Shown one piece after another: positions 6,919-64,000 of a DNA stretch of 64,000 nt. The notes beneath the pieces were generated by a model that saw nothing but the letters and a program-made list of their open reading frames with translations, was not told the DNA's origin and ran no database searches. Source of the stretch: Sulfuricurvum sp. (lineage in GTDB: Bacteria; Campylobacterota; Campylobacteria; Campylobacterales; Sulfurimonadaceae); the NCBI GenBank assembly GCA_030692765.1, contig JAUYUB010000006.1:186001-250000 (forward strand), given 5' to 3'. Position 1 is the stretch's first letter, and each line of letters opens with the position of its first letter. Made by a program: the position numbers and the translations under genes.

Positions 6919-7000
6919 TTCCTTCGATTCTCTCTGCGGGAACGAATGTTAATAATTAACTGTTTTTATAAAGAATAAATCTAAAATTAAGATTTTCTAC

Positions 7001-7006
7001 TATAAT
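7001..7006 (+). promoter_or_regulatory. Probable -10 element of the first FapA-like gene
   Basis: TATAAT lies 46 bases before the TTG start in an otherwise AT-rich gap after the efflux operon. No -35 box is evident, which is usual for sigma-70 promoters in Campylobacterota. Confidence 0.4.
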
Positions 7007-7021
7007 ATAATCTACTTTGAT

Positions 7022-7046
7022 TTGTAATATTTTTGTAATAAATGAG
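7022..7046 (+). repeat. 25-bp leader repeat, copy 1
   Basis: These 25 bases recur exactly at 8903-8927. Each copy lies immediately before a FapA-like gene and ends in the ATGAG of the ribosome-site region, five bases before the TTG start. It may be conserved for expression or be a remnant of the tandem duplication. Confidence 0.85.
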
Positions 7047-7051
7047 AAAAA

Positions 7052-8854: not shown

Positions 8855-8902
8855 ATAATAGCCTATATTCAAGCATCATCTAATGCTTTACTAGCTATCA
8901 TC

Positions 8903-8927
8903 TTGTAATATTTTTGTAATAAATGAG
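8903..8927 (+). repeat. 25-bp leader repeat, copy 2
   Basis: Exact copy of 7022-7046, placed directly before the second FapA-like gene. The following bases (GAAAA then TTG) differ from copy 1 by a single base, improving the ribosome site to GAGG. Confidence 0.85.
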
Positions 8928-8932
8928 GAAAA

Positions 8933-10738
8933 TTGCATACAATCAAAATAACCACTTTTGCGGTTCCAAATGAGCTTAAAAAACTTGCGCAACAGTGGAA
9001 TCTCCCAGTCGATACTATTGACTTTGATGTACTCTCATATCAGACGCAGTATATAGGAGCTATTGACGAAGATTGGCGGACACTTGATGGTAATGATCTG
9101 GGTGAGATCACCACCGAAGTGGAAATACGCTCGCCCCTGTTGCTGATTCGGCAAGAGTATCAACTCCTGGTACGTCCTTTAGTACCGCATCCACATTTTA
9201 ATCTTCAATTCACTATGGCTTCAGACAAATATAAATCTAAACTGGTAGCCATTGTCGATCCCTCTTCGAGTCTTCCGCTCAAAAAAGGGTTGCAAGAGTA
9301 TTTAAAAGAGACCATTAGCCGTAAAAAACTGCGCAGCGGTTTTATGATTGGAATCACTGATGGTAGTCTTGAAAAAGAGATCAATGCGATGCTTCTCAAA
9401 ATTCAAAAAGAGGGTCCGCTTAAGGAGCCATACCGATTGCCCATCACGCACTTTTATCCGCCTATTACTCCAATCAATGACAACGTAATACTTCACTATA
9501 AAAAAATACAACGTAGTAATAATCTACTTGACGGGGTTGAGATAAATGACCTTATTATTGAATATATTCTTCCAAAAAATGGAGTAGATGGACGAAGCTG
9601 TACAGGAAAACATATCCATGTAGGTGATCCGCTAATTCGTTATGCCAATACAATCAAAACAGACCCCCAAAGTATCAGAGCCGAAGAAGATCACCATTCC
9701 ATACGATTCTATGCCACAAAATCCGGATTCGTCGAGCGCAAGAATGGTCTCTTTACCATCAGCCAAGATCTGTATTTAAAAAGTGCCAGCTTCAAAAGTA
9801 CCGGTTCTCTCGAAGCAGGCAGTGAGAAAGAGATCAATATTAAAATAGGAGCGGGCAGTAAAGCAGGTGATGATGCCATCGGATCAGGTGTCAATATCGA
9901 TGTTCAAACGCTCGATGTCAAAGGAACTGTTGGCAGCAATACAAAAATACAAGCCTGTGAAGTCACCATCGGAGCGCAAACTCATAAAAAATCATTTATC
10001 GAAGTAGAAGGAAATGCGACCATCCATCTGCATCGCGGAAATCTGAAAGCCAAACATGCCATCATTGATATCCTCGAAGCCGGAACCGTAGAAGCCCAAA
10101 CGGTATACGTCAAAACCATGTCAGGAGGAGAGATCATTGCCCAACGTGTCATCATCGATGTTCTCCACTCCAATGCCAAGATCACGGCATTGGAATCGAT
10201 TGAAATCAAACGCATTGCAGGAGATGGGAATGATCTTATCATCAACCCCAGAGCACTTCCAAGCTATTTGGAACAAATTACTGCTCTTGAGGATGAGTTG
10301 GCACGTAAACAACATGAATTGAGTGAAAGAGGCAAAAAATACCTGCAAAAAGAACTCCTCATGAAAGAAGAGCGTACGCGTATTCAGCGAACCATTAACA
10401 ATATTAATATCGCAAGCCGCCAAAATAAAGAACCCATGAAGTCTGATAAAGAACGTCTCACCCAATATAAAAGTGCGGTTGAATCCCTAAAAAACGAAGC
10501 GATTATGATCAAAGCGCAAGAAGAAGCCCTGCACGCATTTGAACGTAAACTCGATCATCTCTATGAAGCCGATCTGCAGGCAGTAGTGACACATCATAAA
10601 ACCTATGACGGAAATACTCGTGTGCAATTTATTGATCCCAAAACGCGCAGAGCCTACACTATCTCACCCAAAGGCAAGATCACTCATATACGATTACACA
10701 AAGAAGGCGACGAGAAAAAACTCTTTTTCGAATCCTAG
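8933..10738 (+). CDS. FapA/DUF342 family protein, copy 2
   Basis: The 601-residue product is a paralogue of the preceding gene with the same domain order: signature DGRSCTGKHIHVGDP near residue 225, beta-helix repeats, then a coiled coil. The central part from about residue 250 to 435 is almost identical to copy 1, while the N-terminal quarter and the coiled coil have clearly drifted. The last residues (HIRLHKEGDEKK then FFES) are again shared. It starts with TTG after GAGGAAAA. No signal peptide or membrane segment is seen. Tandem duplication with later sequence exchange in the middle is the simplest reading. The function is unknown beyond family membership. Confidence 0.85.
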   Translation: MHTIKITTFAVPNELKKLAQQWNLPVDTIDFDVLSYQTQYIGAIDEDWRTLDGNDLGEITTEVEIRSPLLLIRQEYQLLVRPLVPHPHFNLQFTMASDKYKSKLVAIVDPSSSLPLKKGLQEYLKETISRKKLRSGFMIGITDGSLEKEINAMLLKIQKEGPLKEPYRLPITHFYPPITPINDNVILHYKKIQRSNNLLDGVEINDLIIEYILPKNGVDGRSCTGKHIHVGDPLIRYANTIKTDPQSIRAEEDHHSIRFYATKSGFVERKNGLFTISQDLYLKSASFKSTGSLEAGSEKEINIKIGAGSKAGDDAIGSGVNIDVQTLDVKGTVGSNTKIQACEVTIGAQTHKKSFIEVEGNATIHLHRGNLKAKHAIIDILEAGTVEAQTVYVKTMSGGEIIAQRVIIDVLHSNAKITALESIEIKRIAGDGNDLIINPRALPSYLEQITALEDELARKQHELSERGKKYLQKELLMKEERTRIQRTINNINIASRQNKEPMKSDKERLTQYKSAVESLKNEAIMIKAQEEALHAFERKLDHLYEADLQAVVTHHKTYDGNTRVQFIDPKTRRAYTISPKGKITHIRLHKEGDEKKLFFES

Positions 10739-49825: not shown

Positions 49826-50304
49826 CGCTTGACCGCCACAAGATAAGCACGACGGCAAAAAAGAACGAGTAACATCACTAACAAGATTTTAAAATCTATC
49901 TCGCTTGCTTTGTGTAATGATTCAAACGAATTATTCATCATTGCCACTTCGCCAAGCTGTTGAAACTCCAACATTTTAGGGGTATAGATACCGCTGAAAA
50001 GCAGCAATGTACCAATGGCTCCCAATGATGCCATAATCGAAACCTTATCAATTTGCATTGCTTTAAAACGAGCAGCTTCATACACGGCGATGATGGCGGC
50101 CATCACGTATCCCCAATAACTGAAGCGGCGAAAAATTTCGCCCATAATTTTTCCCTCTTCATAGCGTGAGAGCAAGGGAATGGTTAAAAATATTTCAGAA
50201 TGAAAGACCACTGCTGCGACGAATGCCCCTAACACGAAAACCGCACCGATCGTCATAGCTATTGTAAGCAAATAAAACACATCAATTAGAGCTTTTTTAT
50301 TCAT
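49822..50304 (-). CDS. DUF4149-like integral membrane protein
   Basis: The 160-residue product has about four membrane helices: LIDVFYLLTIAMTIGAVFVL near the start, GYVMAAIIAVYEAARF near 65, SLGAIGTLLLFSGIYTPKM near 95 and KILLVMLLVLFCRRAYL near the end. The charged loop EEGKIMGEIFRRF and the spacing are like the DUF4149/TMEM205 group, which has no firm function. It overlaps prmC by eight bases and the ABC gene by four, so all three are co-translated. Confidence 0.75.
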   Translation of the reverse strand: MNKKALIDVFYLLTIAMTIGAVFVLGAFVAAVVFHSEIFLTIPLLSRYEEGKIMGEIFRRFSYWGYVMAAIIAVYEAARFKAMQIDKVSIMASLGAIGTLLLFSGIYTPKMLEFQQLGEVAMMNNSFESLHKASEIDFKILLVMLLVLFCRRAYLVAVKR

Positions 50305-51130
50305 GATTCACCTTTAAACTAAATCCTCGGTCAAACGAGGCAAAATCTTTGTAAAATGCTAATGATTGTACCGCAAAAGATTTTAGATATTCCTGCACTT
50401 TGACCCGTTGATCGTATCCCATTTCACACATAAAAATTGGAATTTTTCGATCAAGCACTTCATCCAAAAGACGCTGTATGATTTCATCGCCAACGCTTCC
50501 TCCAAAAAGTGCATTTTGCGGTTCATACGATAAATTGCTCTCCAAAGAGACCTCGTGAGCGATATATGGAGGGTTAGATACGAGTAGATCGATTTTTTCA
50601 CTCACACAACTCAGTAAATCACCCTCACGCAGTTCAATACGCTCACACAATCCAAAGGCCTCAATGTTGCGGCGTGCTACGCTCAGTGCTCTTGGAGAGA
50701 TGTCTACAGCGATAAAATGGGCATGGGGCAGATGCAGGGCGAGCATTATCGAGATAATACCGCTTCCCACCCCTACTTCGACGATCGTAAGATGTTTATT
50801 AGGATTCACACGTGCCAATACTTCATCAATCAACAGCTCCGTCTCAGGACGAGGGATCAGTGCCCCCTCATCAATGTAAAACTCTCTGCTGTAAAAACTG
50901 ACACGATTGGTCAAATATTCGAGAGGTTCATTGCGTTTTCTGCGTTCAATCCACTCCAAAAGACGGGGTTCCTGATCGTCTATCAACGTCTCTTGATGGG
51001 TAATGAAATAGAGTTGATCACGCTGTAAATAGGCAATCAAAAGCAGTTCTGACTCGCGACGGGGAGATTCAACGACTCCCGATAGTGCCTCGGAAATCTC
51101 GCTGTGGAGTTCTTTTAGAGTACGGGGCAT
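50297..51130 (-). CDS. prmC: Peptide chain release factor N5-glutamine methyltransferase
   Basis: The 277-residue enzyme methylates the Gln of the GGQ motif in release factors. It has an N-terminal helical domain (about 1-75), the Rossmann SAM site VEVGVGSGIISIMLALH near 118, and the substrate motif LLVSNPPYIAHEV near 183. LIPRPETELLIDEV near 95 is the family-specific segment. Its start overlaps the end of the M48 protease gene by 16 bases. Downstream it overlaps the DUF4149-like gene. Confidence 0.96.
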   Translation of the reverse strand: MPRTLKELHSEISEALSGVVESPRRESELLLIAYLQRDQLYFITHQETLIDDQEPRLLEWIERRKRNEPLEYLTNRVSFYSREFYIDEGALIPRPETELLIDEVLARVNPNKHLTIVEVGVGSGIISIMLALHLPHAHFIAVDISPRALSVARRNIEAFGLCERIELREGDLLSCVSEKIDLLVSNPPYIAHEVSLESNLSYEPQNALFGGSVGDEIIQRLLDEVLDRKIPIFMCEMGYDQRVKVQEYLKSFAVQSLAFYKDFASFDRGFSLKVNHE

Positions 51131-52359
51131 GGATCAACAAAATCTTCGGTGACGTCTGCAACAATATCTGAACCCAAAGCACGAAGGCGCTCGATAACCG
51201 GCGGATGGGTTGTATGAAAAAATCGGTACAGCGGATGAGATAGGGGAAAGCTTTTGTTTTCACTTACCAATTTCGTCAGTGCCGAAATCAAGTGCTCTGC
51301 ACCACCAAGTTCTGAACCCGTACGATCAGCCTCATATTCGTTGTGTCGGCTAACAAGTCCCATAAGAGGCATCATAACAAAACTCACCATCGGCATGAGG
51401 AGAATAAACAGCATCATCATTATGTGTGGGGACGAAGAAACCCCCAGCTCAACATACAGCGATTGAGGAAGATTGCCAAACGCCGCAAACATACCAAATA
51501 GCATTGCTCCCACCATCCCAATATTTTTATACAAATCCCCGTGAGCAAAATGGCCCAGTTCGTGACCCAATACGGCAATCAGCTCTTGCGGTGTTAGTTT
51601 TTGCAATAACGTGTCAAACAGCACTACCCGTTTGGATTTTCCCAAACCGCCGAAGTAGGCATTAAGCCTTGCATCACGTTTACTCGCATCACTCACAAAC
51701 ACGCCACTGCTAACAAAGCCTGTTTTCTCCATCAGATCTGCTATTTGTTCTTGCAGTTGCGGGTTATCCAAAGGTGTCACTTTATCAAAAAAGAGTGCTC
51801 TCACGGTAGGAAAAAACATGTTCATCAGCACTACTACACCAAATATAAAACAAAAACTCCACAACCACCACAACTCGCTTGCGTTGATAATCGAAGCAAT
51901 TCCCCACACTATCAAACCGCCGATTATTATCGTCAATATGGTAGAGATCAGGGTGTCTTTAATATATTGTGCCGTACTTGAACGGTTAAATCCGTACTGC
52001 TCATCGATTTTAAACTTGGCATACCATCCAAAAGGCAGCATAACGGCGCTGTTGATCAAAATCAGTCCCAGTACGGCAAATATAGTATGTAAAAGCGGAC
52101 TTTGCATCACAAAGAGTTGATCCAGCCATACCAGCGCTCCCGCCATCCATACAAAGAAAAGCGCGTATTCCACCATCGCCTCTACCAGCGAAAGTTTCTC
52201 TTTGGCTACCGCATAATTAGCGGCATAAAGATATTCGCTCTCACCCAACAGCACTGCTTGTTTACGTTTAACCTGATTGATAAATCCTATTTGCATCACA
52301 CTCACATACATGCGCATCAAAATATAAAAAGTATAAAGTCCGACAATCGTCATCAACAT
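51115..52359 (-). CDS. M48-family membrane zinc metalloprotease (Ste24/CAAX-type)
   Basis: The 414-residue product has several membrane helices and the zinc site VLGHELGHFAHGD near residue 270; the third ligand Glu is in NEYEADRTGSELGG near 340. N-terminal helices and the FNRSSTAQYIKDT region match Ste24-type proteases rather than HtpX, which is shorter. In bacteria these act on membrane or misfolded proteins; the CAAX substrate of yeast is absent. It starts the leftward group with prmC, the DUF4149-like protein and the ABC ATPase. Confidence 0.92.
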   Translation of the reverse strand: MLMTIVGLYTFYILMRMYVSVMQIGFINQVKRKQAVLLGESEYLYAANYAVAKEKLSLVEAMVEYALFFVWMAGALVWLDQLFVMQSPLLHTIFAVLGLILINSAVMLPFGWYAKFKIDEQYGFNRSSTAQYIKDTLISTILTIIIGGLIVWGIASIINASELWWLWSFCFIFGVVVLMNMFFPTVRALFFDKVTPLDNPQLQEQIADLMEKTGFVSSGVFVSDASKRDARLNAYFGGLGKSKRVVLFDTLLQKLTPQELIAVLGHELGHFAHGDLYKNIGMVGAMLFGMFAAFGNLPQSLYVELGVSSSPHIMMMLFILLMPMVSFVMMPLMGLVSRHNEYEADRTGSELGGAEHLISALTKLVSENKSFPLSHPLYRFFHTTHPPVIERLRALGSDIVADVTEDFVDPCPVL

Positions 52360-52416
52360 AAAATTCCTTTAATAAAGTGTAATTATCGACTATGGATCAT
52401 TAAAATGCTCTATGCT

Positions 52417-54465
52417 TTACCATTTACCATCAAGAGTCAATAATACGCTGGAACGTGAGCTCTCTTTGTCTCTCTGGATTTGGATCAGACTTCCTGAGGT
52501 ATCGTAACGTGAAGAGGTTGTTTCAATCGGTTCGCGCGTAATGTTTTTTAGGTTTAGGGAGAGTTTAAACGTCGAATCAAGCCGTTTGGTCACATAGACA
52601 TCCAATACTCCATACCGATTTTGAGATTTGACGATAAAACTTTGATCAATAGGATCATCAAAACCGCCGTTATAGCGATACGCTGCGCCATAGCCCAACC
52701 CGTAAGGAGCATAGGTGTAATCTGCTCCGAAATTCAAAAGGTACAACGGTGTTTGGGCTATCACCCCGCTAAAACCACTCGCCGTGTTTTGCAATGCTGT
52801 CTTTTGAACCGTTGCATTTCCCCATATTCCTAATCCCTCTACCCATTCGCCAAGCTGCTTTTTCACTTCCAGCTCAGTACCCCACAGCTGTGCCTCACCG
52901 CTGTTTTCAGGTTTTTGAACATAGCGGGTGCCCTCAAACCGTGTCCATTTTTCTATTTTATTTTTCATATCACGATAAAACGTATTAAGACTCACGATCC
53001 CTTTGTCCGAAAAATAATGTTCCAATCGCATCTCATACCCAATGGCCGTCTCTTCTTTAAGATTTGGGTTACCCGTGATATCGGGATTGTTAATATCATT
53101 GTCCCCCAGTGAGCTGTCAACCGTTGAACTGATCTCATCCAATCTGGGAAGTTTGACACTCTTGGCGACACTCAAACGCAGCTGATCATCGGGGGTGATT
53201 TTGTACAGCATATGCAGCGAAGGGGCGACATAATCAATGGAATCGATATTCCCAACATCCCGAGAAGTCTTTTCATAGCGCACTCCAGAGGTAAGAATGA
53301 CCGTGTCTCCCAAACTCATCTCATCTTGGACATAAAGAGCATATCTGTCTTGATCCATACTTACGCTGTTTGACGTTTGGGTTGCATTTACATCATTGCG
53401 AATATCATCCCTTTGGCTCATATGACGATATTCCACCCCTCCTTTGAAGAAATGCTGATCATATAAGTACGAAAGATTGGTATTTACTCCATACACCCGA
53501 AACAGGGAATCATCTTTTTGATGCAAGGTATTCAAACTGACAGCGTCCCGTGAATTTTTTTCACCCTCTTGCTCTCTTCCGTGTAAAATGAGTTTCCAAT
53601 CGGCCAATGTACTTTGAGAAATATGGTGTTCACCCAAAGCCTTTGCCATGTAAAAAATTCCGTCATTCTTGTCCGTTTCATTAATATTTTTGGACACGGT
53701 ACCCGATGCGGTTGTCACATCATGGATCGTACTGTTCTCCTTGCTGGTCCCTAATACTGTATCAAAAGTATATTTATTTTTAGTGTCTGCCGTATAGATG
53801 AGTTTGGTATTGAGATTCAAGAAGCGAAATCTTCCCTCTTCATCACTGGACTGAATGGTCCCATTGCTGTCATTGGTATAGGCATCATCTCTTTGGGTAT
53901 CACTGGAAGTGGTACTAACGAGATAACTGAGTTTCCCCTCTTTTTTTTCATAGGAAGCGAAAGCGGTGCCCATAGGTGAATCATGATACATCCCTCCTGT
54001 AAGTCTGATAACCGCTTTGCCATCGCTTTTTGGTTTTTTGAGGATAATATTGACAATCCCTCCCATCGCTTCCGCCGTGTATTCTGCTGAACCGTTGCTC
54101 ATCACTTCCATACGCTCAATCATATCGGGGCTGATTTGCTCCAGCACACTGCCACGATGTCTTGAACTCGTGGATACTTCTTCACCGTCAACAAGAACTT
54201 TTGTGTACCCTTTTCCCACAGCCCCTTTTTTAGTTCCGTCAGGAATAGTGACCCCTGCGGTACGTTTAAGTATCTCCAGTACATTTAAATCACCATACTG
54301 CGTCAACTGACTGCCCGTTACGATCCGTTTTGAAATCGAATTTTCTTTGCGTGATTCAATCGCGGCAGTAGCATTGGCTTCCACTTGGATTGTTTCCATT
54401 GAAACCGTTTCTTGCGCGTACGAAAAAGAGAGAAGGAGAGAGGGGATGAAAAGTCGGTAAATCAA
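52417..54465 (-). CDS. TonB-dependent outer membrane receptor A
   Basis: The product is about 682 residues with a signal peptide (LFIPSLLLSFSYA), a TonB-box-like ETVSMETIQVEA, a plug domain (about 45-150, with GGIVNIILKKP) and a beta-barrel ending in LLTLDGKW. The plug and barrel resemble FepA/CirA-type siderophore receptors, but the ligand is unknown. The start is TTG at 54465 with GAGGA seven bases upstream; the ATG at 54525 would add 20 residues that do not look like a signal peptide and would include the promoter region. It is divergent from receptor B. Confidence 0.9.
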   Translation of the reverse strand: MIYRLFIPSLLLSFSYAQETVSMETIQVEANATAAIESRKENSISKRIVTGSQLTQYGDLNVLEILKRTAGVTIPDGTKKGAVGKGYTKVLVDGEEVSTSSRHRGSVLEQISPDMIERMEVMSNGSAEYTAEAMGGIVNIILKKPKSDGKAVIRLTGGMYHDSPMGTAFASYEKKEGKLSYLVSTTSSDTQRDDAYTNDSNGTIQSSDEEGRFRFLNLNTKLIYTADTKNKYTFDTVLGTSKENSTIHDVTTASGTVSKNINETDKNDGIFYMAKALGEHHISQSTLADWKLILHGREQEGEKNSRDAVSLNTLHQKDDSLFRVYGVNTNLSYLYDQHFFKGGVEYRHMSQRDDIRNDVNATQTSNSVSMDQDRYALYVQDEMSLGDTVILTSGVRYEKTSRDVGNIDSIDYVAPSLHMLYKITPDDQLRLSVAKSVKLPRLDEISSTVDSSLGDNDINNPDITGNPNLKEETAIGYEMRLEHYFSDKGIVSLNTFYRDMKNKIEKWTRFEGTRYVQKPENSGEAQLWGTELEVKKQLGEWVEGLGIWGNATVQKTALQNTASGFSGVIAQTPLYLLNFGADYTYAPYGLGYGAAYRYNGGFDDPIDQSFIVKSQNRYGVLDVYVTKRLDSTFKLSLNLKNITREPIETTSSRYDTSGSLIQIQRDKESSRSSVLLTLDGKW

Positions 54466-54493
54466 AAAATATTCCTCTGTATGTTTAAGGGAA

Positions 54494-54508
54494 AATTGTA
54501 CTACAATT
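54494..54508 (-). promoter_or_regulatory. Inverted repeat over the probable promoter of receptor A
   Basis: AATTGTA-C-TACAATT is a near-perfect dyad 29 bases upstream of the TTG start. On the transcribed strand it contains TACAAT, a plausible -10 hexamer, so a repressor bound here would block transcription. The regulator cannot be named. Confidence 0.4.
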
Positions 54509-54633
54509 AAACTATGAAATCGCAAAGTGGCATCTCAATCCCATCGATGCTTTAAGACATGAATAGAGTCATTAACGGTAAATTTCATTTCACTGTTGAA
54601 TGGAACTTGCTATTATTAAGTTGTATAAGCTAT

Positions 54634-54639
54634 TATAAT
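54634..54639 (+). promoter_or_regulatory. Probable -10 element of receptor B
   Basis: TATAAT lies 26 bases before the ATG at 54665 in the divergent gap between receptors A and B. The rest of the gap (54509-54633) shows no further feature. Confidence 0.4.
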
Positions 54640-54664
54640 AAAATTTTAACCCTTGGGTAACTCT

Positions 54665-56689
54665 ATGAAACATTTGCCATTTTTATTTATATCGCTATTG
54701 CTAACACAATCACTGATCTTGGCTGAAGACAGTAATGATCTCGATAAAGTCCTGGAAGAGATGACCGCTATTGCGACAAAGACTAAGCTGAATGCCGATT
54801 ACGTACCCGGAACCGTAACCGTCATTAGCGGTGAAAAATTAAAATCGCTGGGTATCACAAATCTTGCGGAACAAAACGCATTTGATACGATTGTTGGATT
54901 TGATTCATCAACCCTCTCACTTAGGGGAGCGGGTGCAACATATGGAGCGCAAGGCAATAAAATCAAATGGATGATAAATGACAAGCCGATCAGTGCCGAA
55001 ATATGGGGACTTCCGAAACTTGGTGCTGGGCAGGTTGTTTATCCAATACCAACCGATGCCATTGAGCGAATCGAAATTGTCAGAGGTCCAGGCTCAGCGA
55101 TTTATGGCGGTAATGCAATTTACGGCGTTGTTAATATCGTTACGAAAAAAGGGGCCGATAGCTTATTTACAACCCTATCCCGGATGGAAAGCAATAAGTT
55201 TGGCAAAAGCCTAGGCGCTTACGGATCTTTTGAAAAAAATGATTTGAAAGTTTCCACTATTGTCTCGGTTGACGAAAGTGATGGCTGGGATTTAACAGCA
55301 ACCAGCCAATCTCGTGCCCAACAAGGCAATCTCCCCAATGCAAGCGGCAGTAACCTTTTTATGGCTGATGCATCGTATAAAAATATTGATTTCTGGGCAT
55401 ACAGACTGGAAGCCAAAAATAACTATGCCCGTTTACAATGGGACCCAACAAACTATTTGCCCGCAGACAATACCAAACCCGTTCAATCCAATACCTATAC
55501 GATTTTGGGTGTGCAAGGAAAGTATAATGTCCTATCCGATGTTTTACTAACTGCAAAAACCGGTATCAATTACTATACAAATCGTGCCGAAGTTGTCTTC
55601 TTCCCTGCCATTAGCGGTATCAGAAACATAGATTACGCTGAAAGCACAAAGTATGCCGAGGGGACAGTAGAAACAACCTTCGGTTCTCATAGGCTGCTAG
55701 GGGGGCTCTATGCCGGATATCTTTCGGTGGATCAAGATGATGTTAGGCAAACATGGAACAATGTTCGTCATTTATTAACGGCAAATAATCCAAAAAGAAT
55801 AAACAAAGCACTCTATGTGCAAGATGAAATACAGTTTGATGACAAAAGCACAGCAACCATCGGAGCGCGTTATGACACTTACAGTGACGGGCGAAAGGCT
55901 TTATCTCCAAGATTGGCTTTTGTGTATCTTTACGATGATTCAAATATTTTCAAGGCTCAATATTCAAGAGCGTTTAGACCTCCTAGCCTTTCAGAGCAAT
56001 ACTCGCCTAACAATACAGATTCGAATAAAATGTATGAATCGGAAACTGCCGATACCTTTGAATTGTCCTACATTTTTAAAACGAACGATTCTTCCCTCAA
56101 AACAACTGCGTTTCATTCAAAAACCCATAATATGATTTCCTATCATGATTTTACCTACGAAACGATCAATCTTGAAAGCCCAACTACCATAAACGGGCTG
56201 GAGATTGAGTTGACAAAAAATTATGAAAAGATAAATCTTGGTGCCAATATGGCGTTTTATAAATCGTACAGGGGAGATGTTAAGCTGAGCAGAAATGGTT
56301 TGGCTTTGAACTATAACGCCAGCGAGTTTGCACTGTCCGCCAAGTTTATAGGAAACGTATTTGCTACCCTAAACAGCGATACGTCCTATCCAACCACATT
56401 ATGGTATCACTATACAGGAAGTAAAAATAGAATTAGCAATGACTTGCTGGACGACAATGGTAACATCATAAGAATCTACACTACAAACGGTTCTACCCCC
56501 GCTCAAGATTATGTGAATATCACCCAAAAGATTAATGGAATAGCAAAAGATCTTGATTTAGAATTCGGTGTAAAGAATCTCTTCGGAAAAACACTGAGAA
56601 CACTCTACTACCCGCTAAATCCACCAAACACATATGACGTACCCTATATGGGACAAACTTTCTGGGTTAATTTGCTTTATAAGTTCTAA
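54665..56689 (+). CDS. TonB-dependent outer membrane receptor B
   Basis: The product is 674 residues with a signal peptide (MKHLPFLFISLLLTQSLILA). A short acidic segment is followed by MTAIATKTKLNADYVPGTVT, then a plug (IERIEIVRGPGSAIYGGNAI near 138) and a barrel ending in FWVNLLYKF. The plug motif is that of BtuB/siderophore-type receptors. The N-terminal segment resembles that of receptor C, which is linked to a YfiR-like protein. A TTG at 54653 is possible, but the ATG at 54665 begins the signal peptide. It converges on receptor C; the ligand is unknown. Confidence 0.9.
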   Translation: MKHLPFLFISLLLTQSLILAEDSNDLDKVLEEMTAIATKTKLNADYVPGTVTVISGEKLKSLGITNLAEQNAFDTIVGFDSSTLSLRGAGATYGAQGNKIKWMINDKPISAEIWGLPKLGAGQVVYPIPTDAIERIEIVRGPGSAIYGGNAIYGVVNIVTKKGADSLFTTLSRMESNKFGKSLGAYGSFEKNDLKVSTIVSVDESDGWDLTATSQSRAQQGNLPNASGSNLFMADASYKNIDFWAYRLEAKNNYARLQWDPTNYLPADNTKPVQSNTYTILGVQGKYNVLSDVLLTAKTGINYYTNRAEVVFFPAISGIRNIDYAESTKYAEGTVETTFGSHRLLGGLYAGYLSVDQDDVRQTWNNVRHLLTANNPKRINKALYVQDEIQFDDKSTATIGARYDTYSDGRKALSPRLAFVYLYDDSNIFKAQYSRAFRPPSLSEQYSPNNTDSNKMYESETADTFELSYIFKTNDSSLKTTAFHSKTHNMISYHDFTYETINLESPTTINGLEIELTKNYEKINLGANMAFYKSYRGDVKLSRNGLALNYNASEFALSAKFIGNVFATLNSDTSYPTTLWYHYTGSKNRISNDLLDDNGNIIRIYTTNGSTPAQDYVNITQKINGIAKDLDLEFGVKNLFGKTLRTLYYPLNPPNTYDVPYMGQTFWVNLLYKF

Positions 56690-56827
56690 GTATAAATCAT
56701 ATACTAAGTGCAAACAATTATGTGATTAACATGTAATTAACAAATGATGTAATAGCCTTAAATTTCAAGAAATTTACACTAGATAGAATTTAATCCTGCT
56801 ACACTTTACGGAACGAGTAAAGCAAAA
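56690..56827. other. Convergent gap between receptors B and C
   Basis: 138 AT-rich bases without a gene. A 6-bp hairpin (CTTTAC / GTAAAG) at about 56803-56821 lies beside the receptor C stop but lacks a T-run, so it is at best a weak terminator. Confidence 0.35.
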
Positions 56828-59008
56828 TTAAAAGTTATAAACGTAACTTAAAAAGTAGTTCCGCCCTTCTCTAACTATCCCGCCATCAGTAGAGTAATAA
56901 TAGCTTGGAAGGGTGACTTCCCTGTTAAAAAGATTTTTAGCGGTGAATCGAAGTTCGCTGGAAGATGAGAATCGGTACGTCACTGTTTCATCAAAAATAT
57001 GCGCCGAATCACAGGTTGCGTCATTGCTTACCCATGAGAGCTCTGTTTTGGTCGTCTCTGAAAAATATCTCCAGGTGGTTCCAAAAGAGAGTGCTTCCGT
57101 CGGACGGTAAACATACATCGCTTTAAGCATCACCTTGGAGATGTCCGGCATGCTTTGATTAACACTTCCTCCACCACTATTAATCGATGAACCAATACCA
57201 AAATCACGGGTGCTAGGTTCATCTGGTATAGTGTAAAGTGTATCCAAATACGTTGCATTGAAATAGAGGTTGTGCTCTATCGACGTATGGAAAAAATATT
57301 CAAACTCTACCCCTTTGCTGGATCGCTCTTTGAAGTTTTGGTAGCCTGGGTCAGTGTTTGGAAACTCTTCGAGGTCGATAACATTCTTGAGCTTTGAATA
57401 AAAAAGATTCAATGAGAGCTTATGGTTTAAATTCGGCATATAGATAGCCACTGCCTCATAGGTATCGGTCTCTTCTGGGACGATCGTGCTGTCCCCTGCT
57501 CGGGTATTGATATGTCCATTTTGATACGATTCAATCAGCGTCGGAGCACGAAAGGCGGAGCCATAGAGAAGCTTTAAAATGGTCGTGTCACTGGCCCGGT
57601 AAACCAATCCAGCTCGTTTGCTCCACTGCGGCCCATAATCAGAATAGTTATCTACCCTCAAACCAAGGACCAGATCCACATCATCGGTAAGCGATATTAA
57701 ATCTTGTAGATAAGCATATCCAATCGTTCTCTTTGTATTTTCCGGCAGCAACGTAGTCGTAGGATTCGCCCAGAATGCAGACTCTTTTGATTCTCGATAT
57801 CGAAAATTATTGTAATCTGGATGATTTAAAATCGCATCCATATTTTGAATAATCGTATTTTCAATACTGCTGTAAAACTCATCCTTAGTGATGTTAACCT
57901 GGCGTACACCAGCCCCCATCAAGATATCGTTTGATTGCATAGAAGGGAGAGTCAATAGGGCCTCGGCTTCGAAATTCTCTTCCATTGATTTTTCATGGGT
58001 GTAAAAGCCCTCCTGCATATCGATATTGACGTCGGCAAACCTGCCGGCAATCTCCCCAACAGGACCCATATTGTTTTTGACGTCAAGCTCTCTATGCGAA
58101 AAACTTGCTTTGGCTTCCAGCTTATAATCCTCCAATGCTGTTTTGTAGGAGAGTTGCGAGAAAAAATAGTTGTTCTTATGATCTTCATCTCTTTGCGGGA
58201 TAGGATTTAAATATCCCTCATAACTGTAAAAATTTCCATAGGTGTTTTGTTTTAAACGGGTGAGAAATTCAAAACTTCCATTGACGGCTTTGAATCCAAC
58301 CGAAAAATCTTTCATGGCTTCATCCGTTTTTCGAACCTCACCTTTTACGTCGAGCGCTTTGCCATTTTGCTTGTAATACCCATCGGTAAACAGTTTCCAA
58401 TCCCCAGAAGAGCTATGTAAATTTACCCCTGCTGTACGGTATTGATAACTTCCTGCCCCCGCAAAAAGCTGATTCTCTTTTGTGTTATTCCCCAATTTGG
58501 TAATAATATTAATCGTACCGTAAAATGCACCGGCTCCATAAAGCGTAGAATTTGGCCCCCGTAATACTTCTATTTTATCAACCAGTTGCATCGGAAAATC
58601 CATGTAAAAATGACTGCTACCTAGCACTTCATTATTGATAGCCACCCCATCAATCATAATTTTGATCTTATCAGAGAGATATGCATTGGGATTTTTCAAA
58701 CCACGTACCGTAGTCATGGTGTAACCCGTTGGGCTCAATTGCATTTGAATACCCGGCAGCATATCTAACGCTTCCCCAATCGTTTGAATCCCTGCGCCGA
58801 GATAAGTATGCGCATTAATAACCGTCACAACTGAGGGGAGATAATCCACATTGAGCGATTTTTTGGTCGCGAGTTCGCTCGCATTTTCTAGTAATGATTC
58901 CAAATCTTTATTACTATCCAGCTCATTCGCATGGGCCAAAAACAACATTGATAATACAACACTGTGCAGCAAAATACTTTTTTGCAATCTAACTATCCAC
59001 TCTTTCAA
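56828..59008 (-). CDS. TonB-dependent outer membrane receptor C, partner of the YfiR-like/cyclase pair
   Basis: The 726-residue product has a signal peptide (about 1-28), an acidic stretch, then ASELATKKSLNVDYLPSVVT, a plug domain (VDKIEVLRGPNSTLYGAGAF near 140), and a beta-barrel ending in NYFLSYVYNF. The N-terminal segment is of the kind seen in receptors encoded next to DUF4154/YfiR-like proteins. It is divergent from just such a gene at 59113, sharing a 104-base control region. A joint sensory unit is therefore likely, although the ligand is unknown. Confidence 0.9.
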   Translation of the reverse strand: MKEWIVRLQKSILLHSVVLSMLFLAHANELDSNKDLESLLENASELATKKSLNVDYLPSVVTVINAHTYLGAGIQTIGEALDMLPGIQMQLSPTGYTMTTVRGLKNPNAYLSDKIKIMIDGVAINNEVLGSSHFYMDFPMQLVDKIEVLRGPNSTLYGAGAFYGTINIITKLGNNTKENQLFAGAGSYQYRTAGVNLHSSSGDWKLFTDGYYKQNGKALDVKGEVRKTDEAMKDFSVGFKAVNGSFEFLTRLKQNTYGNFYSYEGYLNPIPQRDEDHKNNYFFSQLSYKTALEDYKLEAKASFSHRELDVKNNMGPVGEIAGRFADVNIDMQEGFYTHEKSMEENFEAEALLTLPSMQSNDILMGAGVRQVNITKDEFYSSIENTIIQNMDAILNHPDYNNFRYRESKESAFWANPTTTLLPENTKRTIGYAYLQDLISLTDDVDLVLGLRVDNYSDYGPQWSKRAGLVYRASDTTILKLLYGSAFRAPTLIESYQNGHINTRAGDSTIVPEETDTYEAVAIYMPNLNHKLSLNLFYSKLKNVIDLEEFPNTDPGYQNFKERSSKGVEFEYFFHTSIEHNLYFNATYLDTLYTIPDEPSTRDFGIGSSINSGGGSVNQSMPDISKVMLKAMYVYRPTEALSFGTTWRYFSETTKTELSWVSNDATCDSAHIFDETVTYRFSSSSELRFTAKNLFNREVTLPSYYYSTDGGIVREGRNYFLSYVYNF

Positions 59009-59112
59009 TTATTTTTTATTATAAATAATTATAATTTTTGATAAAATATCTTATTAAAATATATGATATAATTATAGCCTTAAGTTTTAATAAATTACGA
59101 GGGGATCATGCA
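59009..59112. promoter_or_regulatory. Divergent control region of receptor C and the YfiR-like operon
   Basis: A 104-base, extremely AT-rich segment that must hold the promoters of both units. Several TATAAT-like words and short dyads occur on both strands. They are too numerous in such AT-rich DNA to assign. GAGGGG at 59099-59104 is the ribosome site of the YfiR-like gene. Confidence 0.5.
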
Positions 59113-59670
59113 TTGTTGTTTTTAACTAAACTTTTCACTCTTCTTTGCCTCGCTACTGCAACCATTCATGCATCCGTATATGATGATGAAACATTAACCA
59201 TTTTTGCAAAAATTGCCCCTCGTATGATTTTAATGAGCAGTCAAAAAGAAAAAATCAATGAAAGTATTCAGATATGTGTTGTCAATGACAAGATTGATGA
59301 ACGCAGCGCGATCTCTTTGATTGGTAAAGTACAGGATGCGTATCCCAATGGGATTTCAAATCATCCCCTTGTATTAACCAACACTACCTATGCCTCTATG
59401 GATAAATGCCAAGACAACCAACTCATGTTCCTATTCAATTCAAACAATAAAAATATCGAAAAAGCACTCCAATATTCTCATAATCATCACCTAATGAGCA
59501 TCTCTTATGATCCAAAATACCTCGAAAATGGGGTTGAAACTTCCCTCTTCCTTGGAAGAAAAGTAACCCCGTATATCAATATTAATGCACTGCGTAAAAA
59601 TGGGATCGAGATGGATAACCTCTTAATCAGAATTTCAAAAATATACCTATATGAAGATGGAAAACAATGA
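59113..59670 (+). CDS. YfiR-like (DUF4154) periplasmic regulator
   Basis: The 185-residue product has a signal peptide (LFLTKLFTLLCLATATIHA) and the DUF4154 hallmark near the end: MSISYDPKYLENGVETSLFL, then TPYININALRKNGIEMDNLL. In Pseudomonas, YfiR binds and represses the membrane cyclase YfiN from the periplasm. Here the next gene is a membrane cyclase, joined by an ATGA overlap, which fits that model. TTG 59113 is chosen because GAGGGG lies eight bases upstream and the signal peptide then begins at residue 1; the longer TTG at 59038 has no ribosome site. It diverges from TonB receptor C. Confidence 0.84.
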   Translation: MLFLTKLFTLLCLATATIHASVYDDETLTIFAKIAPRMILMSSQKEKINESIQICVVNDKIDERSAISLIGKVQDAYPNGISNHPLVLTNTTYASMDKCQDNQLMFLFNSNNKNIEKALQYSHNHHLMSISYDPKYLENGVETSLFLGRKVTPYININALRKNGIEMDNLLIRISKIYLYEDGKQ

Positions 59671-60929
59671 GCAATATTCGCATAGAACATAAAATTATTA
59701 TCAGTATTGTTCTCTTCACGCTGTTGCTGGTTGGCTTACAGCGATATGAAGTATCTCAAGACATTGCACAACAATTTATTGCATCAAAAAAAGATAAAAA
59801 TACCTTATTACTCAACACGATTGCCCCAATCTTAGGAGTTAACTATTCCCTTGGCCTCGACGATGCCAACAAGGAGTACCTAGACCAGATCGTAAACCAA
59901 AACAGCGATATGGAGGGGCTAACCATTACTTCGGCTAACGGTAAAATCCTCTACCATTATTATAAAAAACAAGATAAAGAGACCGAAAAAGACTTTTCTG
60001 AAATCGATTCCTCATTCAAATCGGTTACCGATCCCATCACAGGTGAAATACTGGCAACAGCAGAAGCCCATTTTGATGATCACGAATACCAAACGATGTT
60101 AGAAAACAACCAAACCACCACATTCAAACTTTTCGGGATTACTTTTGTTTTACTTGCCTTGTTTGTCATTTTACTCAAACGAGAATTCCGATCTTTAAAA
60201 GAACTCACCCTCAATGTCTTGCAATACGATCCAAAAATCAACAATTTCACCCTCGTCAAATCCACCCGAAGCGATGAAGTAGGGATTATTCACAATGCCA
60301 TCATCGCTATGGTCGAAAAAATACAGTCCTATGCAGAAACACTGGATAGAACGAACCACATACTGGAGCTGCGAGTCCAAGAGAGAACCAAGGAGCTCGC
60401 AGAGGCAAATCAAAAACTCAGAGAGGAGACCCTCACTGATCCACTTACAGGGTTATCCAACCGAAGAGCATTTGAAAGCCATTTCAAAGACATCAGCCAA
60501 CTCGCACAGCGCAATGGTGTTGAAGTGTCGGTTATTATGTGTGACATTGATCACTTTAAAAGTATCAACGATACCTTCGGGCACGCTGCAGGAGATGATA
60601 TCCTGCGCGAGCTAGGCGGCATTATGAAAAACGCGATCAAACGAAGCAGCGATTTTATTGCACGCTATGGAGGGGAAGAGTTTGTCCTTGTCTTGTACGA
60701 TACCGATATGAACGATGCAACACAGGTGTGCATGAGAATCCAAGAAAATATCAAAAGCCTCGATGGTTTTGAATCCCAATGGGGCAAAATTGGCGTGATC
60801 ACGATGAGCTTTGGGATCGCCAGCATTGTACCTAGCGCAGAGTCTAACTACGAAAACCTAATAATCTCTGCTGATTTGGCCTTGTACAGAGCAAAATATG
60901 AGGGTAGAAATCGGATTGTTTCGGCATAA
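59667..60929 (+). CDS. YfiN-like membrane diguanylate cyclase
   Basis: The 420-residue product has TM1 (about 9-26), a periplasmic domain of about 120 residues (MEGLTITSANGKILYHY), TM2 (FKLFGITFVLLALFVILL), a HAMP-like linker with coiled coil, and a GGDEF domain. The active site is ARYGGEEFVLV near residue 333, with an RSSD I-site before it. This is the YfiN/TpbB layout. Its ATG overlaps the YfiR-like stop by four bases, so regulator and cyclase are translated together. A cyclase pseudogene follows after 28 bases. Confidence 0.92.
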   Translation: MSNIRIEHKIIISIVLFTLLLVGLQRYEVSQDIAQQFIASKKDKNTLLLNTIAPILGVNYSLGLDDANKEYLDQIVNQNSDMEGLTITSANGKILYHYYKKQDKETEKDFSEIDSSFKSVTDPITGEILATAEAHFDDHEYQTMLENNQTTTFKLFGITFVLLALFVILLKREFRSLKELTLNVLQYDPKINNFTLVKSTRSDEVGIIHNAIIAMVEKIQSYAETLDRTNHILELRVQERTKELAEANQKLREETLTDPLTGLSNRRAFESHFKDISQLAQRNGVEVSVIMCDIDHFKSINDTFGHAAGDDILRELGGIMKNAIKRSSDFIARYGGEEFVLVLYDTDMNDATQVCMRIQENIKSLDGFESQWGKIGVITMSFGIASIVPSAESNYENLIISADLALYRAKYEGRNRIVSA

Positions 60930-60957
60930 TATTACAACTTTCAACTAGGATGCATCC

Positions 60958-61436
60958 ATGCGACCTGAAGATATTACGTCCAGTTTAACAAAACATTATT
61001 TCATTGCTGTTTCCATTTTGGCACTGCTATCCACACTGACTTATTTTTCTCTCTACATGGGGATTAAAACCAGTGAAACAACCGCCCATATAGTCAATCT
61101 ATCCGGTCAACAAAGAATGCTCTCCCAACGTATAGCCTCTTTCGCACAGCAATATTATCTTAGAATGTATACCGCTCAGGCGGCGAAGAGTTTGTTGTCA
61201 TATTTAACCGTATCACAGAAGAAGAAGCCACCAATAGAACCAATAAAATACGCCTAACCATCCAAGAACATCTTTTTGTTTTCAATTCTCTTGAAATACG
61301 CATCACTATAAGCGGTGGGTTCTATCATCCTGATATTATCCCACTAGATAGTGTACAGGAAATTTTAAAATCTGCAGACGTCGCGTTGTATGAAGCAAAA
61401 CATCTTGGGCGCAACCAAATTCGCCAATTTAAGTAG
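60958..61436 (+). pseudogene. Decayed PilJ-sensor diguanylate cyclase (internal deletion)
   Basis: The first 60 or so codons from ATG 60958 encode a membrane helix and the PilJ-type motif (NLSGQQRMLSQRIASFAQQYY), as in the cyclase at 14740. After that point the next codons, in the +2 frame, encode the end of a GGDEF domain: YRSGGEEFVVIFNRI, then ALYEAKHLGRNQI, ending at TAG 61436. Compared with the intact gene, roughly 250 codons are missing and the frame is shifted, so the translated product ends at 61257 with a nonsense tail. It is best read as a recent deletion, placed right after the YfiN-like gene. A ribosome-site-like AGGA remains before the start. Confidence 0.88.
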
Positions 61437-61492
61437 TAAGTACAAAAAACTTAAAGTAGGCGGTATACTGTCAAAAAAACTTGAGAGAAATT

Positions 61493-62179
61493 GTGAAATC
61501 CATCGTCGAAACAAGGGCAACCTGCTATCACTGTTACCGCCCTATGAATCAGTGCATGTGTAGCGCTATCAAAGCGATACCTACCCAAACAAAATTTATC
61601 ATTTTGATGCATCCAAAAGAGTTTAAAAAAACTAAAAATGGGACCGGAAGGCTCACCCATCTCTCATTACCCAATTCGCAGCTTTATATTGATGTTGATT
61701 TTACCCAGAATAAAGCGATCAACGCTCTCATAGACGATCCAAAAAACCTATGTTATGTTCTCTATCCTGGAAAAGAGAGTATTCATCTCAACACCCAAAA
61801 AATAGAACTTGAAAATCGTCAACTCGTGATTTTCATCATCGACTCCACATGGCCGTGTTCGGTGAAAATACTTCGCTTGAGTCATAACCTGCAGCGCTTG
61901 CCTAAACTCAGTTTCACCCATTCCAAAATATCGCAGTTTCAAATCAAAGAACAGCCAAAAGAGTTTTGCCTCTCTACGATGGAATCAACCTTGAGTATTT
62001 TAGAACTGCTCACCTATCATGGGATCGAGATAATCGAGGAAACGGCTTTAGCCTCATTCTTGGACCCTTTTTTATCGATGGTTGACTATCAAATTCAATG
62101 TATTTCAAAAAGTAATATTCCGCAAAAAAATACAAAAAGATTTAGGGTTAGGGAAAAACAAAAGATTTTAGCGGTATAA
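61493..62179 (+). CDS. DTW-domain tRNA-uridine aminocarboxypropyltransferase
   Basis: The product is about 228 residues. Near the start a cysteine cluster (CYHCYRPMNQCMC) would bind zinc. The family motif DxTW appears as FIIDSTWPCS near residue 115, and MHPKEFKKTKNGTGRL near 40 is the other hallmark. Enzymes of this family (TapT/YfiP in E. coli) add an acp group to a tRNA uridine using SAM. GTG 61493 is used because GAGAG lies five bases upstream; a TTG at 61481 has no such site. It is not clearly part of an operon. Confidence 0.86.
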   Translation: MKSIVETRATCYHCYRPMNQCMCSAIKAIPTQTKFIILMHPKEFKKTKNGTGRLTHLSLPNSQLYIDVDFTQNKAINALIDDPKNLCYVLYPGKESIHLNTQKIELENRQLVIFIIDSTWPCSVKILRLSHNLQRLPKLSFTHSKISQFQIKEQPKEFCLSTMESTLSILELLTYHGIEIIEETALASFLDPFLSMVDYQIQCISKSNIPQKNTKRFRVREKQKILAV

Positions 62180-62214
62180 TATTTTCAGATACAGTTAACT
62201 ACGGGGTTGGCACA

Positions 62215-63159
62215 ATGAATAAAGATGATTTTGACACCAAAAGCTGGGAACTTTCCACCCAGGCTTTGAGTAATATACGCACCAAAAAACTTTCCCCCTT
62301 ACCCAACAATTATCAAGCAGAATTTTACGAGTTACTTGAGAATCAAATGTCTGCTGAACTCACCGGCGAGATGTATACACAAGAATCCGTCTCCAATCAT
62401 GTCAACAAATATCTAGAAATTGCCCAAATAGCTCTCCAAGCATTCATCCAAAGCCATCAGGACATCAGCCAGGTGATGCAGGAACATTCCCAGCGCATAA
62501 GCCCATCCCATGCCTACACCGATGATTATCTCAGCAAAAACTGTACTAATATTGTTGAGAATTTGGCCCAGCTGGATACAGATATGTCCCACGCACTGAT
62601 TAAAGCGCACGATCAGATCAAACACTTGACGCAAAGCATCGAACTCCTGAATGAAGAGAATCGTATCGATCCACTCACAAAGTTTTACAATCGTAAAGAG
62701 CTTTTCAGGGATTTAGTCTCTATTGGAGATAATCTACAAAATGAGGGTGTGCCAGAGTGCTATTTGCTCATGATTGACATGGATGATTTCAAAGCCATCA
62801 ACGACACCTATTCACATCTAGCCGGAGATAAAACGCTCGTCTTTGTCGCACGGACAATCGCTTCTTTGATTCGAAGCAGTGATAAGGCCTACCGTTTTGG
62901 AGGTGATGAGTTCATTATTGTTCTCAATCGCTCAACTTTGGATGTCGCTCAAACCATCGCCGAAAAAATCCGTGCACATATTGAGAAAGCACGACTCTTT
63001 TACGAAAACAATGAGATGCGTATTACAGTAAGTATCGGTGTGTCAAAACTCAGAGGAAAAGAAGTCGAAACTTCTTTACTAAGCGCGGATAGAGCCCTTT
63101 ATGAAGCTAAAAATAAAAATAAAAACCAAGTGTTTATCATCTCTTCCGAAGAAGGATGA
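62215..63159 (+). CDS. Soluble diguanylate cyclase
   Basis: The 314-residue product has no membrane segment. The N-terminal 145 residues are helical and not recognised (SWELSTQALSNIRTKKLSPL), ending in a coiled coil. The GGDEF domain begins at DPLTKFYNRKELF, with active site FGGDEFIIV near residue 228 and an RSSD I-site five residues before. It should be an active, product-inhibited c-di-GMP synthase. What the N-terminal region senses is unknown. It converges on the glycine-zipper gene with only six bases between. Confidence 0.9.
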   Translation: MNKDDFDTKSWELSTQALSNIRTKKLSPLPNNYQAEFYELLENQMSAELTGEMYTQESVSNHVNKYLEIAQIALQAFIQSHQDISQVMQEHSQRISPSHAYTDDYLSKNCTNIVENLAQLDTDMSHALIKAHDQIKHLTQSIELLNEENRIDPLTKFYNRKELFRDLVSIGDNLQNEGVPECYLLMIDMDDFKAINDTYSHLAGDKTLVFVARTIASLIRSSDKAYRFGGDEFIIVLNRSTLDVAQTIAEKIRAHIEKARLFYENNEMRITVSIGVSKLRGKEVETSLLSADRALYEAKNKNKNQVFIISSEEG

Positions 63160-63165
63160 TCTTCT

Positions 63166-63507
63166 TTAGTCGCGATCGTGACCTTTGTGCTGTTTCTTGT
63201 AATGTCCCTTGTGCTTGCCATGGTCATGATGATCTCTGTCATCGTCCACATAAATCACTTTTTGCGCAACAGCTGTATTTGTTGTACGCGTTTGAGTTGA
63301 TGTTTTACTACTTCCCGCAGCAGCACCCAACGCACCACCGGCACCGCCGCCGATAATCGCACCCTCTTTACCACCGATAGCTGAACCCACAGCTGAACCG
63401 ACGCCCGCACCCACCATACTGCCCAATACTGCATTGCCATCAACATTCGCAGCATTTACCGATACGGTCATTGCCAAAGAAACCATTGCTAATACTATTG
63501 ACTTCAT
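63166..63507 (-). CDS. Glycine-zipper envelope protein with His/Asp-rich tail
   Basis: The 113-residue product has a signal peptide (about 1-20), then a glycine-zipper region (LGSMVGAGVGSAVGSAIGG, and following Gly/Ala repeats) that would insert into or span a membrane. The C-terminal third is very rich in His, Asp and Lys (DDDRDHHDHGKHKGHYKKQ), which could bind metal ions. Proteins of this type are usually outer-membrane associated. No specific function can be given. Confidence 0.8.
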   Translation of the reverse strand: MKSIVLAMVSLAMTVSVNAANVDGNAVLGSMVGAGVGSAVGSAIGGKEGAIIGGGAGGALGAAAGSSKTSTQTRTTNTAVAQKVIYVDDDRDHHDHGKHKGHYKKQHKGHDRD

Positions 63508-63660
63508 GTTACTCCTTTAAATAATACCACTATTATAACTCAGATAGGAAAAACTGACTAAAAAACCTCATGTGATTAAAATATAACCAATAGACTGAGT
63601 ATAAAGCACTGCATGATACTGTACACTTTTGAGATAAAAAAATCTTAATTAGGAGAAAGT

Positions 63661-64000
63661 ATGAAATTCGCCGATTTAAAAAAAGAGGGACACTGGCCAA
63701 CGCTGTTTTCTGCCTTCTTATATTTTGACTTTAGTTTTATGATGTGGACGATGTTGGGACCACTGGCTACCGAAATTGGAGAGAGCCTCTCCTCTCGCGG
63801 GTTTACGATGAGTGATGATCAGCAAGCAACCCTGCTTGCCATCCCTGTTTTAGCGGGAGCAATTTTGCGTCTCGTACTGGGGATTTTTGTTGATAAAATT
63901 GGACCTAAAAAAACAGCTATTGCAGCACAGATCATTGTTATCGCAACACTGTTTTTAGCTTATATGAGCGCCAATACTATCACGTATGATCAGTTGCTGC
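63661..64000 (+). CDS. NarK-type nitrate/nitrite transporter, 5' part
   Basis: The gene starts at ATG 63661 with TTAGGAGA before it and runs off the window, so only 113 residues are visible. They match the start of the NarK branch of the MFS: FSAFLYFDFSFMMWTMLGPL (TM1), then LAIPVLAGAILRLVLGIFVD (TM2) and the MFS loop DKIGPKKTA. The likely role is nitrate uptake or nitrate/nitrite exchange, which would fit denitrifying or nitrate-respiring relatives. Confidence 0.85.
   Translation, partial: MKFADLKKEGHWPTLFSAFLYFDFSFMMWTMLGPLATEIGESLSSRGFTMSDDQQATLLAIPVLAGAILRLVLGIFVDKIGPKKTAIAAQIIVIATLFLAYMSANTITYDQLL

Follow-up and report, generated by a model that had tools for sequence, protein, structure and literature searches.

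A TonB-family receptor, a YfiR-like protein and a membrane diguanylate cyclase as a candidate outside-in signalling unit in Sulfuricurvum

We analysed a 64,000-nucleotide window of a Sulfuricurvum sp. genome (contig JAUYUB010000006.1, positions 186,001 to 250,000; coordinates below are those of the window) in which a TonB-family outer-membrane receptor, here called receptor C, diverges from a gene for a YfiR-like protein of family DUF4154, itself overlapping a gene for a predicted membrane diguanylate cyclase. We propose that the three genes constitute an outside-in signalling unit of the YfiBNR kind with a TonB-family receptor standing in YfiB's place, a proposal to which we would give an even chance. 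A preliminary description of this DNA had already taken the genes as one sensory unit controlling cyclic di-GMP (c-di-GMP), an interpretation that is upheld in part. The single unit is well supported by genomics, namely by recurrence, gene overlaps, gene fusions, the clade and N-terminus of the receptors, a prediction borne out nine times in nine, and receptor/YfiR co-variation. Control of c-di-GMP proved too narrow a description, as kinases and SpoIIE phosphatases replace the cyclase elsewhere.

Gene organisation

56828..59008, minus strand: receptor C, a TonB-family outer-membrane receptor of 726 amino acids (Pfam Plug and barrel), divergent from the other two genes.
58841..58927, minus strand: N-terminal periplasm-facing segment of receptor C, residues 28-56, NELDSNKDLESLLENASELATKKSLNVDY (N-terminal profile score), common to YfiR-linked receptors; a putative docking segment.
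59009..59112, no strand: divergent intergenic region, read from the sequence, which presumably holds both promoters.
59113..59670, plus strand: YfiR-like (DUF4154) predicted periplasmic protein with an N-terminal hydrophobic signal (PF13689, profile match, hydropathy).
59667..60929, plus strand: predicted membrane diguanylate cyclase of 420 amino acids with two predicted transmembrane segments and GGEEF (GGDEF match, hydropathy, motif).
59739..60119, plus strand: predicted periplasmic input region of the cyclase, about residues 25-151 (alignment), homologous in the histidine-kinase partners of other loci.

Coordinates, strands and Pfam matches bear out the divergence of receptor C from the YfiR-like gene, and the overlap with the cyclase was also as first described, the ATGA at 59667-59670 serving both to end the YfiR-like gene and to begin the cyclase gene. 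The YfiR-like frame is open from 59038; its likely start is the TTG at 59113, which is preceded by GAGGGG, and not 59038. The same gene order is found in another Sulfuricurvum metagenome-assembled genome (locus L032), where the YfiR-like protein is 86% identical to that of the window.

Recurrence of the arrangement

The preliminary description would have been refuted had the three genes shown no repeated co-occurrence in other genomes, and they clearly do recur together. Within the genus, 23 of 41 genomes had PF13689 matches; the family gave 81 of 200 and a sample of the phylum 22 of 298. From 91 Campylobacterota genomes we examined 131 of 143 DUF4154 places (left out were G011:C25, G011:C186, G025:C127, G007:C70, G380:C224, G393:C6:10186 and six family places near contig ends), with TonB, GGDEF and kinase labels taken from profiles built from window and locus proteins and spot-checked with Pfam. 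A TonB-family receptor lay within 3 kb at 115 of these 131 places and a cyclase (GGDEF), kinase or fused output stood beside DUF4154 at 115, with both present at 100. The receptor was divergent at 29 places, upstream on the same strand at 49 and downstream on the same strand at 37. Spacing is frequently tight: receptor and YfiR genes share a strand at 50 bp or less in 68 cases, YfiR and output genes are no more than 20 bp apart in 98, and at L062, L064 and L068 receptor, YfiR and cyclase genes overlap serially by 4 bases. Six of the 16 receptor-less places are at contig ends, and at L112 and L133 the cluster includes, some 5-6 kb away, a receptor with the N-terminal signature described below.

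Eight genomes (G000, G003, G031, G177, G066, G411, G027 and G023; 90 Plug matches in about 20.5 Mb) were treated more closely. All 29 YfiR-like loci, collected with PF13689 and with a profile of 45 divergent YfiR-like proteins (A1), lie within 4.5 kb of a receptor, where about 4% would be expected by chance (90 x 9 kb / 20.5 Mb; the loci are related, hence no formal probability is attached). One further YfiR-like match in these genomes, of 47 residues (E 6e-4), was taken as noise. The arrangement of receptor and YfiR genes is far beyond chance.

Beyond the phylum our scope was plasmid records and E. coli. Two canonical YfiR queries retrieved five plasmid records, one from Indioceanicola and two each from Sphingobium and Pseudoalteromonas. 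All five, spanning two proteobacterial classes, carry receptor, YfiR and output in order, the receptors having a similar N-terminal segment; one of the Pseudoalteromonas records has its receptor annotated in two pieces. Neither the window YfiR-like protein nor the DNA of the cyclase N-terminus matched anything in the plasmid records. The E. coli locus has YfiR-DgcN-YfiB without a receptor.

A receptor clade with a distinctive N-terminus

Receptor C carries both TonB-dependent receptor domains (Plug 1.3e-17, barrel 1.2e-32 in Pfam), and its closest solved relatives are the colicin I receptor CirA and then BtuB. There is no Pfam match to the STN signalling domain, so it does not class as a FecA-type receptor. 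Ahead of the plug, YfiR-linked receptors have an L/E-rich segment (DLESLLENASELATKKS, LSLEDLLNIQVTSTSRR, PLEELLQTEYIPASH); most unlinked receptors have a plain TonB box there (LDPIVVTATK). Residues 42-49 of receptor C (NASELATK) fit a TonB box poorly, judged by eye, and in canonical members the segment may retain a usable one (IQVTSTSR).

An N-terminal profile built from 79 linked receptors of other genomes separated 31 linked from 54 unlinked receptors of the eight genomes with an area under the curve of 0.999, a value to be read knowing that the training set contains same-genus relatives of the test receptors as well as some 9-12 residues of the plug. The single exception was a linked receptor that scored under two unlinked ones, and receptor C, at 61.8, was third highest of the 85. 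These 85 derive from the 90 Plug matches, 86 of which had loci and one of which had an N-terminus that was not located; the linked set takes in receptor B of the window and, from G031, an additional receptor close to the YfiR gene. The signature also predicts partners. Nine receptors with the segment and no PF13689 neighbour all adjoin a YfiR-like gene (E 1.3e-30 or better); they were chosen by eye, and the profile that found their neighbours was built without them (seven of the nine neighbours are contained in A1). Such receptors, along with unrecognised YfiR-like partners, can thus be picked from sequence alone.

In a tree built without the N-terminus (83 sequences after three rows were dropped, a quick method, several long branches) the 31 linked receptors, receptor C among them, fall in one clade of 33 with support of 94 in the Shimodaira-Hasegawa-like approximate likelihood-ratio test (SH-aLRT). 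Since the linked receptors form one clade, the signature may be inherited. The point that matters beyond such inheritance is that the pairing has survived deep divergence: linkage persists across receptors with branch lengths above 1. Receptor and YfiR distances also co-vary over 29 pairs (Spearman 0.52), and none of 2000 within-genome re-pairings reached that value (mean 0.04, maximum 0.35).

The two unlinked members of the clade are the receptors of L255 (5902-10194) and L256 (5656-9931), which bear a weaker likeness to the signature. At both loci receptor, a small open reading frame (ORF) of 149-156 amino acids and a GGDEF-EAL-like gene overlap serially. The small ORFs belong to no Pfam family, and their kinship with YfiR is not supported, since the profile matches span the signal-peptide end only. 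The two loci may represent the unit in a more diverged form.

The window holds another receptor with the signature:

54653..56689, plus strand: receptor B, with the same N-terminal signature as YfiR-linked receptors (profile score 51.0).

No YfiR gene of its own adjoins it. In L043 and L050 its relatives lie ahead of a kinase-YfiR pair, and it is possible that receptor B is a second receptor of the cluster.

The YfiR-like protein

The window protein matches PF13689 at 33.2 bits, above the curated gathering cut-off of 24.9. Profile A1 aligns with a profile of canonical members that includes E. coli YfiR (A2) at a probability of 98.8 and E 6e-17; A2 in turn matches the solved P. aeruginosa YfiR at 1e-15, and A1 alone found no YfiR structure among solved structures. 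The protein lies outside the curated subgroup: it has no match at E 0.001 to the YfiR equivalog model NF053586 (cut-off 85; E. coli YfiR scores 168), nor to any other NCBIfam model. AlphaFold2, given two sequences (window and L032), returned a mean predicted local distance difference test (pLDDT) score of 45.7. The positions A164, L166, I169, V176, V180 and L181, which line the pocket of YfiR for its partner YfiB, correspond to I150, I152, L155, M162, L166 and I167 of the window protein, and the seventh, P178, to N164, so that six of seven lining positions stay hydrophobic (mapped by hand on profile alignments; window numbering from 59128). One Cys pair is retained, as in 21 of 45 aligned relatives.

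The cyclase and its replacements

The cyclase gene product matches GGDEF in Pfam at E 2.3e-46 and has GGEEF at residues 335-339, as a diguanylate cyclase should, preceded by five residues by RSSD, which we take to be an RxxD I-site. Two hydropathy peaks, at residues 6-24 and 152-170, enclose a stretch of about 127 residues. The label 'YfiN-like', used in the preliminary description, suits this architecture and does not extend to family membership, the protein scoring 132 bits on the NCBIfam YfiN model (cut-off 325) and giving no match to CHASE8, a point taken up below.

The input half is not confined to cyclases. It is shared in alignment by the kinase partners of L107, L122 and L130 at 46-54% identity and by L050 and L047 at 15-17%, and because it is common to cyclase and kinase partners one input serves several outputs. 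DUF4154 is moreover fused directly to GGDEF (L070-L072), to a kinase (L100, L104, L105) or to SpoIIE (L139). All seven of these places are beside a receptor, that of L100 being cut by the contig end. Among 16 places without an output by our built profiles, a candidate gene was scanned with Pfam at six. L080, L084, L136 and L264 have as output a SpoIIE-type phosphatase with a CHASE8 periplasmic domain, L139 the SpoIIE domain fused to DUF4154, and at L262 (3885-8756) receptor and YfiR gene are followed by a clostripain-type peptidase in place of a signalling enzyme.

Proposed mechanism and alternatives

In the relay that we propose, receptor C would bind an external ligand and the exposure of its periplasmic N-terminal segment would change as a result. 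The segment, directly or helped by TonB, would bind or release the YfiR-like protein, which would contact the periplasmic region of the membrane cyclase and alter its activity, probably by relief of repression as in Pseudomonas. The conserved core would be receptor, DUF4154 protein and periplasmic input region, to which different cytoplasmic outputs (cyclase, kinase or PP2C phosphatase) could be attached. What the genomes show is the gene arrangement, the protein families, recurrence, receptor clade and N-terminus, fusions, exchangeable outputs and receptor/YfiR co-variation; physical contact, the direction and sign of control and the ligand are our inference.

More tentatively, and with our judgement leaning slightly against it, a whole lineage of TonB-family receptors may serve mainly as outer-membrane sensors. 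Each would reach its own dedicated YfiR-like adaptor through a short docking segment at the N-terminus, within the TonB-box position or ahead of it, and would drive a plug-in output, be it a cyclase, a histidine kinase or a PP2C phosphatase. Such a general signalling route would stand alongside FecA-FecR-sigma in Campylobacterota and in two or more proteobacterial classes, with several copies per genome. To our knowledge YfiBNR-type systems have had no clear external ligand so far. If a TonB-family receptor heads them, each such locus becomes a sensor with an identifiable ligand, many receptors now annotated as transporters would prove to be sensors, and the ways in which outer-membrane receptors reach the cytoplasm would extend beyond FecR-sigma.

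Several observations weigh against the relay. At 10 of the 131 places, all away from contig ends, there is no receptor within 3 kb, and at L036 (genome G005, 6497-8394) the YfiR-cyclase pair persists after loss of the divergent receptor, a natural experiment that makes a useful test case. The cyclase has no CHASE8 match at E up to 10 (E. coli DgcN 1.3e-33), and a profile comparison of input regions gave a probability of 39. Missing too from the window YfiR-like protein is the second disulfide pair of PAO1 YfiR, reported as essential for folding there (PMC4655355; this and the other papers cited by PMC number are cited for the parts of their text available). The signature may be expected from shared ancestry within one clade, and gene linkage alone can make receptor and YfiR co-vary without contact. 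Finally, fusion of DUF4154 to an output fits a freely sequestered repressor poorly. The fusions argue for DUF4154 as a domain able to act as a fixed input, a role more in keeping with ligand binding or receptor docking than with sequestration.

The fusions are at home in a scheme of import followed by sensing, in which the receptor brings the ligand into the periplasm by TonB-driven transport; once there, the ligand would be bound by the YfiR-like protein, which would then act on the cyclase without ever touching the receptor. DUF4154 would there work simply as a ligand-binding input domain. In its fold YfiR is like one half of a periplasmic binding protein (PMC4655355), and the P. aeruginosa protein accepts vitamin B6 or L-Trp in the pocket for its partner (PMC4887326). 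We nevertheless think this scheme unlikely, if far from negligible: it leaves the distinctive receptor N-terminus unexplained except by clade inheritance, and does not account for the consistent pairing of one receptor clade.

It is also conceivable that the receptor is a target and not a sensor, with c-di-GMP or a kinase controlling its expression and YfiR and the cyclase answering envelope redox or stress. The window receptor is indeed divergent and outside the YfiR-cyclase operon, YfiR/HmsC proteins respond to redox in other bacteria (PMC4655355, PMC5550408), and the window protein keeps its Cys pair. We regard such co-regulation as improbable, given the 68 of 131 places with a same-strand receptor no more than 50 bp from the YfiR gene, the receptor-specific N-terminus and clade, the swapping of kinases and PP2C phosphatases for the cyclase, and the loss of the Cys pair from over half of the aligned relatives. 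That the genes travel together without working together, as a cassette co-inherited by descent or clustered selfishly, would suit the many loci that are close relatives and hence non-independent; but the linkage holds over receptor branch lengths above 1, in three arrangements, in fusions and in two other proteobacterial classes, and we give this explanation very little credence.

Relation to known systems

In P. aeruginosa YfiR represses YfiN, and the outer-membrane protein YfiB takes YfiR away (PMC2837407, PMC4655355). The window unit resembles YfiBNR/TpbB of P. aeruginosa and YfiR-DgcN-YfiB of E. coli in having a small periplasmic DUF4154 protein beside a membrane cyclase with two transmembrane segments, and also in having an outer-membrane partner in the same locus. 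It differs in that this partner is a TonB-family receptor and not an OmpA-type lipoprotein, in that its output is exchangeable, and in that its proteins fall outside the YfiR and YfiN equivalog models. No OmpA-type YfiB is present in the window locus, and searching the loci with E. coli YfiB turned up OmpA-like ORFs at just two of them, adjacent at neither.

A named counterpart is the pair TOL_0243/TOL_0244 (NCBIfam NF053591 and NF053590): TOL_0243 is YfiR-like and periplasmic, TOL_0244 is a TonB-dependent receptor, and the two locus numbers are adjacent. Scored against NF053590, receptor C reaches 103.4 bits (E 1.2e-29), below the cut-off of 645, which none of 151 relatives passes. TOL_0244 increases sevenfold on C28 alkane and is 40.3% similar to OmpS of Alcanivorax dieselolei, a TonB receptor that reportedly detects alkanes and induces the expression of chemotaxis genes (PMC6304351). 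These reports are the nearest experimental hint that such receptors sense. In the literature searched we found no mechanism for the TOL_0243/TOL_0244 pair and no paper joining YfiR and TonB receptors. The earlier remark that a receptor wired in this way is not well characterised therefore holds for mechanism within that literature, and not for the pair as such, which NCBIfam already names.

FecA and FpvA (FecA-FecR-FecI) are likewise TonB-family receptors with an extra N-terminal segment, which there signals to a periplasmic regulator (PMC11658791). Here the segment has about 29 residues against a folded signalling domain of about 79, the partner is DUF4154 and not FecR, and the output is no sigma factor. 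HmsC of Yersinia also belongs to a tripartite c-di-GMP system, HmsCDE, and is linked to DUF4154 through the Pfam name YfiR/HmsC-like; unlike the present locus, no receptor is described for it in the text available.

Neighbouring genes and further loci

The unit had originally been drawn to 61436. Its last part is a separate, decayed gene:

60958..61436, plus strand: pseudogene with a PilJ-type N-terminus and a GGDEF C-terminal part, outside the unit (Pfam; intact relative in L039).

Its N-terminal piece is 57% and its C-terminal piece 68% identical to the intact 427-amino-acid protein in the same place in L039, and it is a PilJ-GGDEF gene with a large internal deletion, separate from the cyclase. 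An Rfam scan of 50000-64000 gave no match.

At seven loci (L038, L040, L046, L048, L246, L250 and L253) a small gene lies directly ahead of the receptor-YfiR pair, near a gene resembling that of a flagellar hook protein (by eye), and in most of them a divergent GGDEF protein is encoded upstream. The small gene of L040 is acyltransferase-like (Pfam Acetyltransf_5, weak FeeM), and the gene is possibly a signal-making enzyme beside its sensor. L112 (5322-13501), L133 and L153 have a larger cluster of YfiR, cyclase, PAS-HD, PAS protein and response regulator, along with another protein that shares the input start; the signature receptor of L112 and L133 diverges at the far end.

Elsewhere in the window, an RND-type efflux pump at 3650-6918 is apparently split into ORFs of 529 and 559 amino acids with their junction at 5239; genes resembling those of an outer-membrane factor and an adaptor lie upstream (all by eye). 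Two similar tandem genes of about 600 amino acids at 7052-10738 appear FapA/DUF342-like, again by eye.

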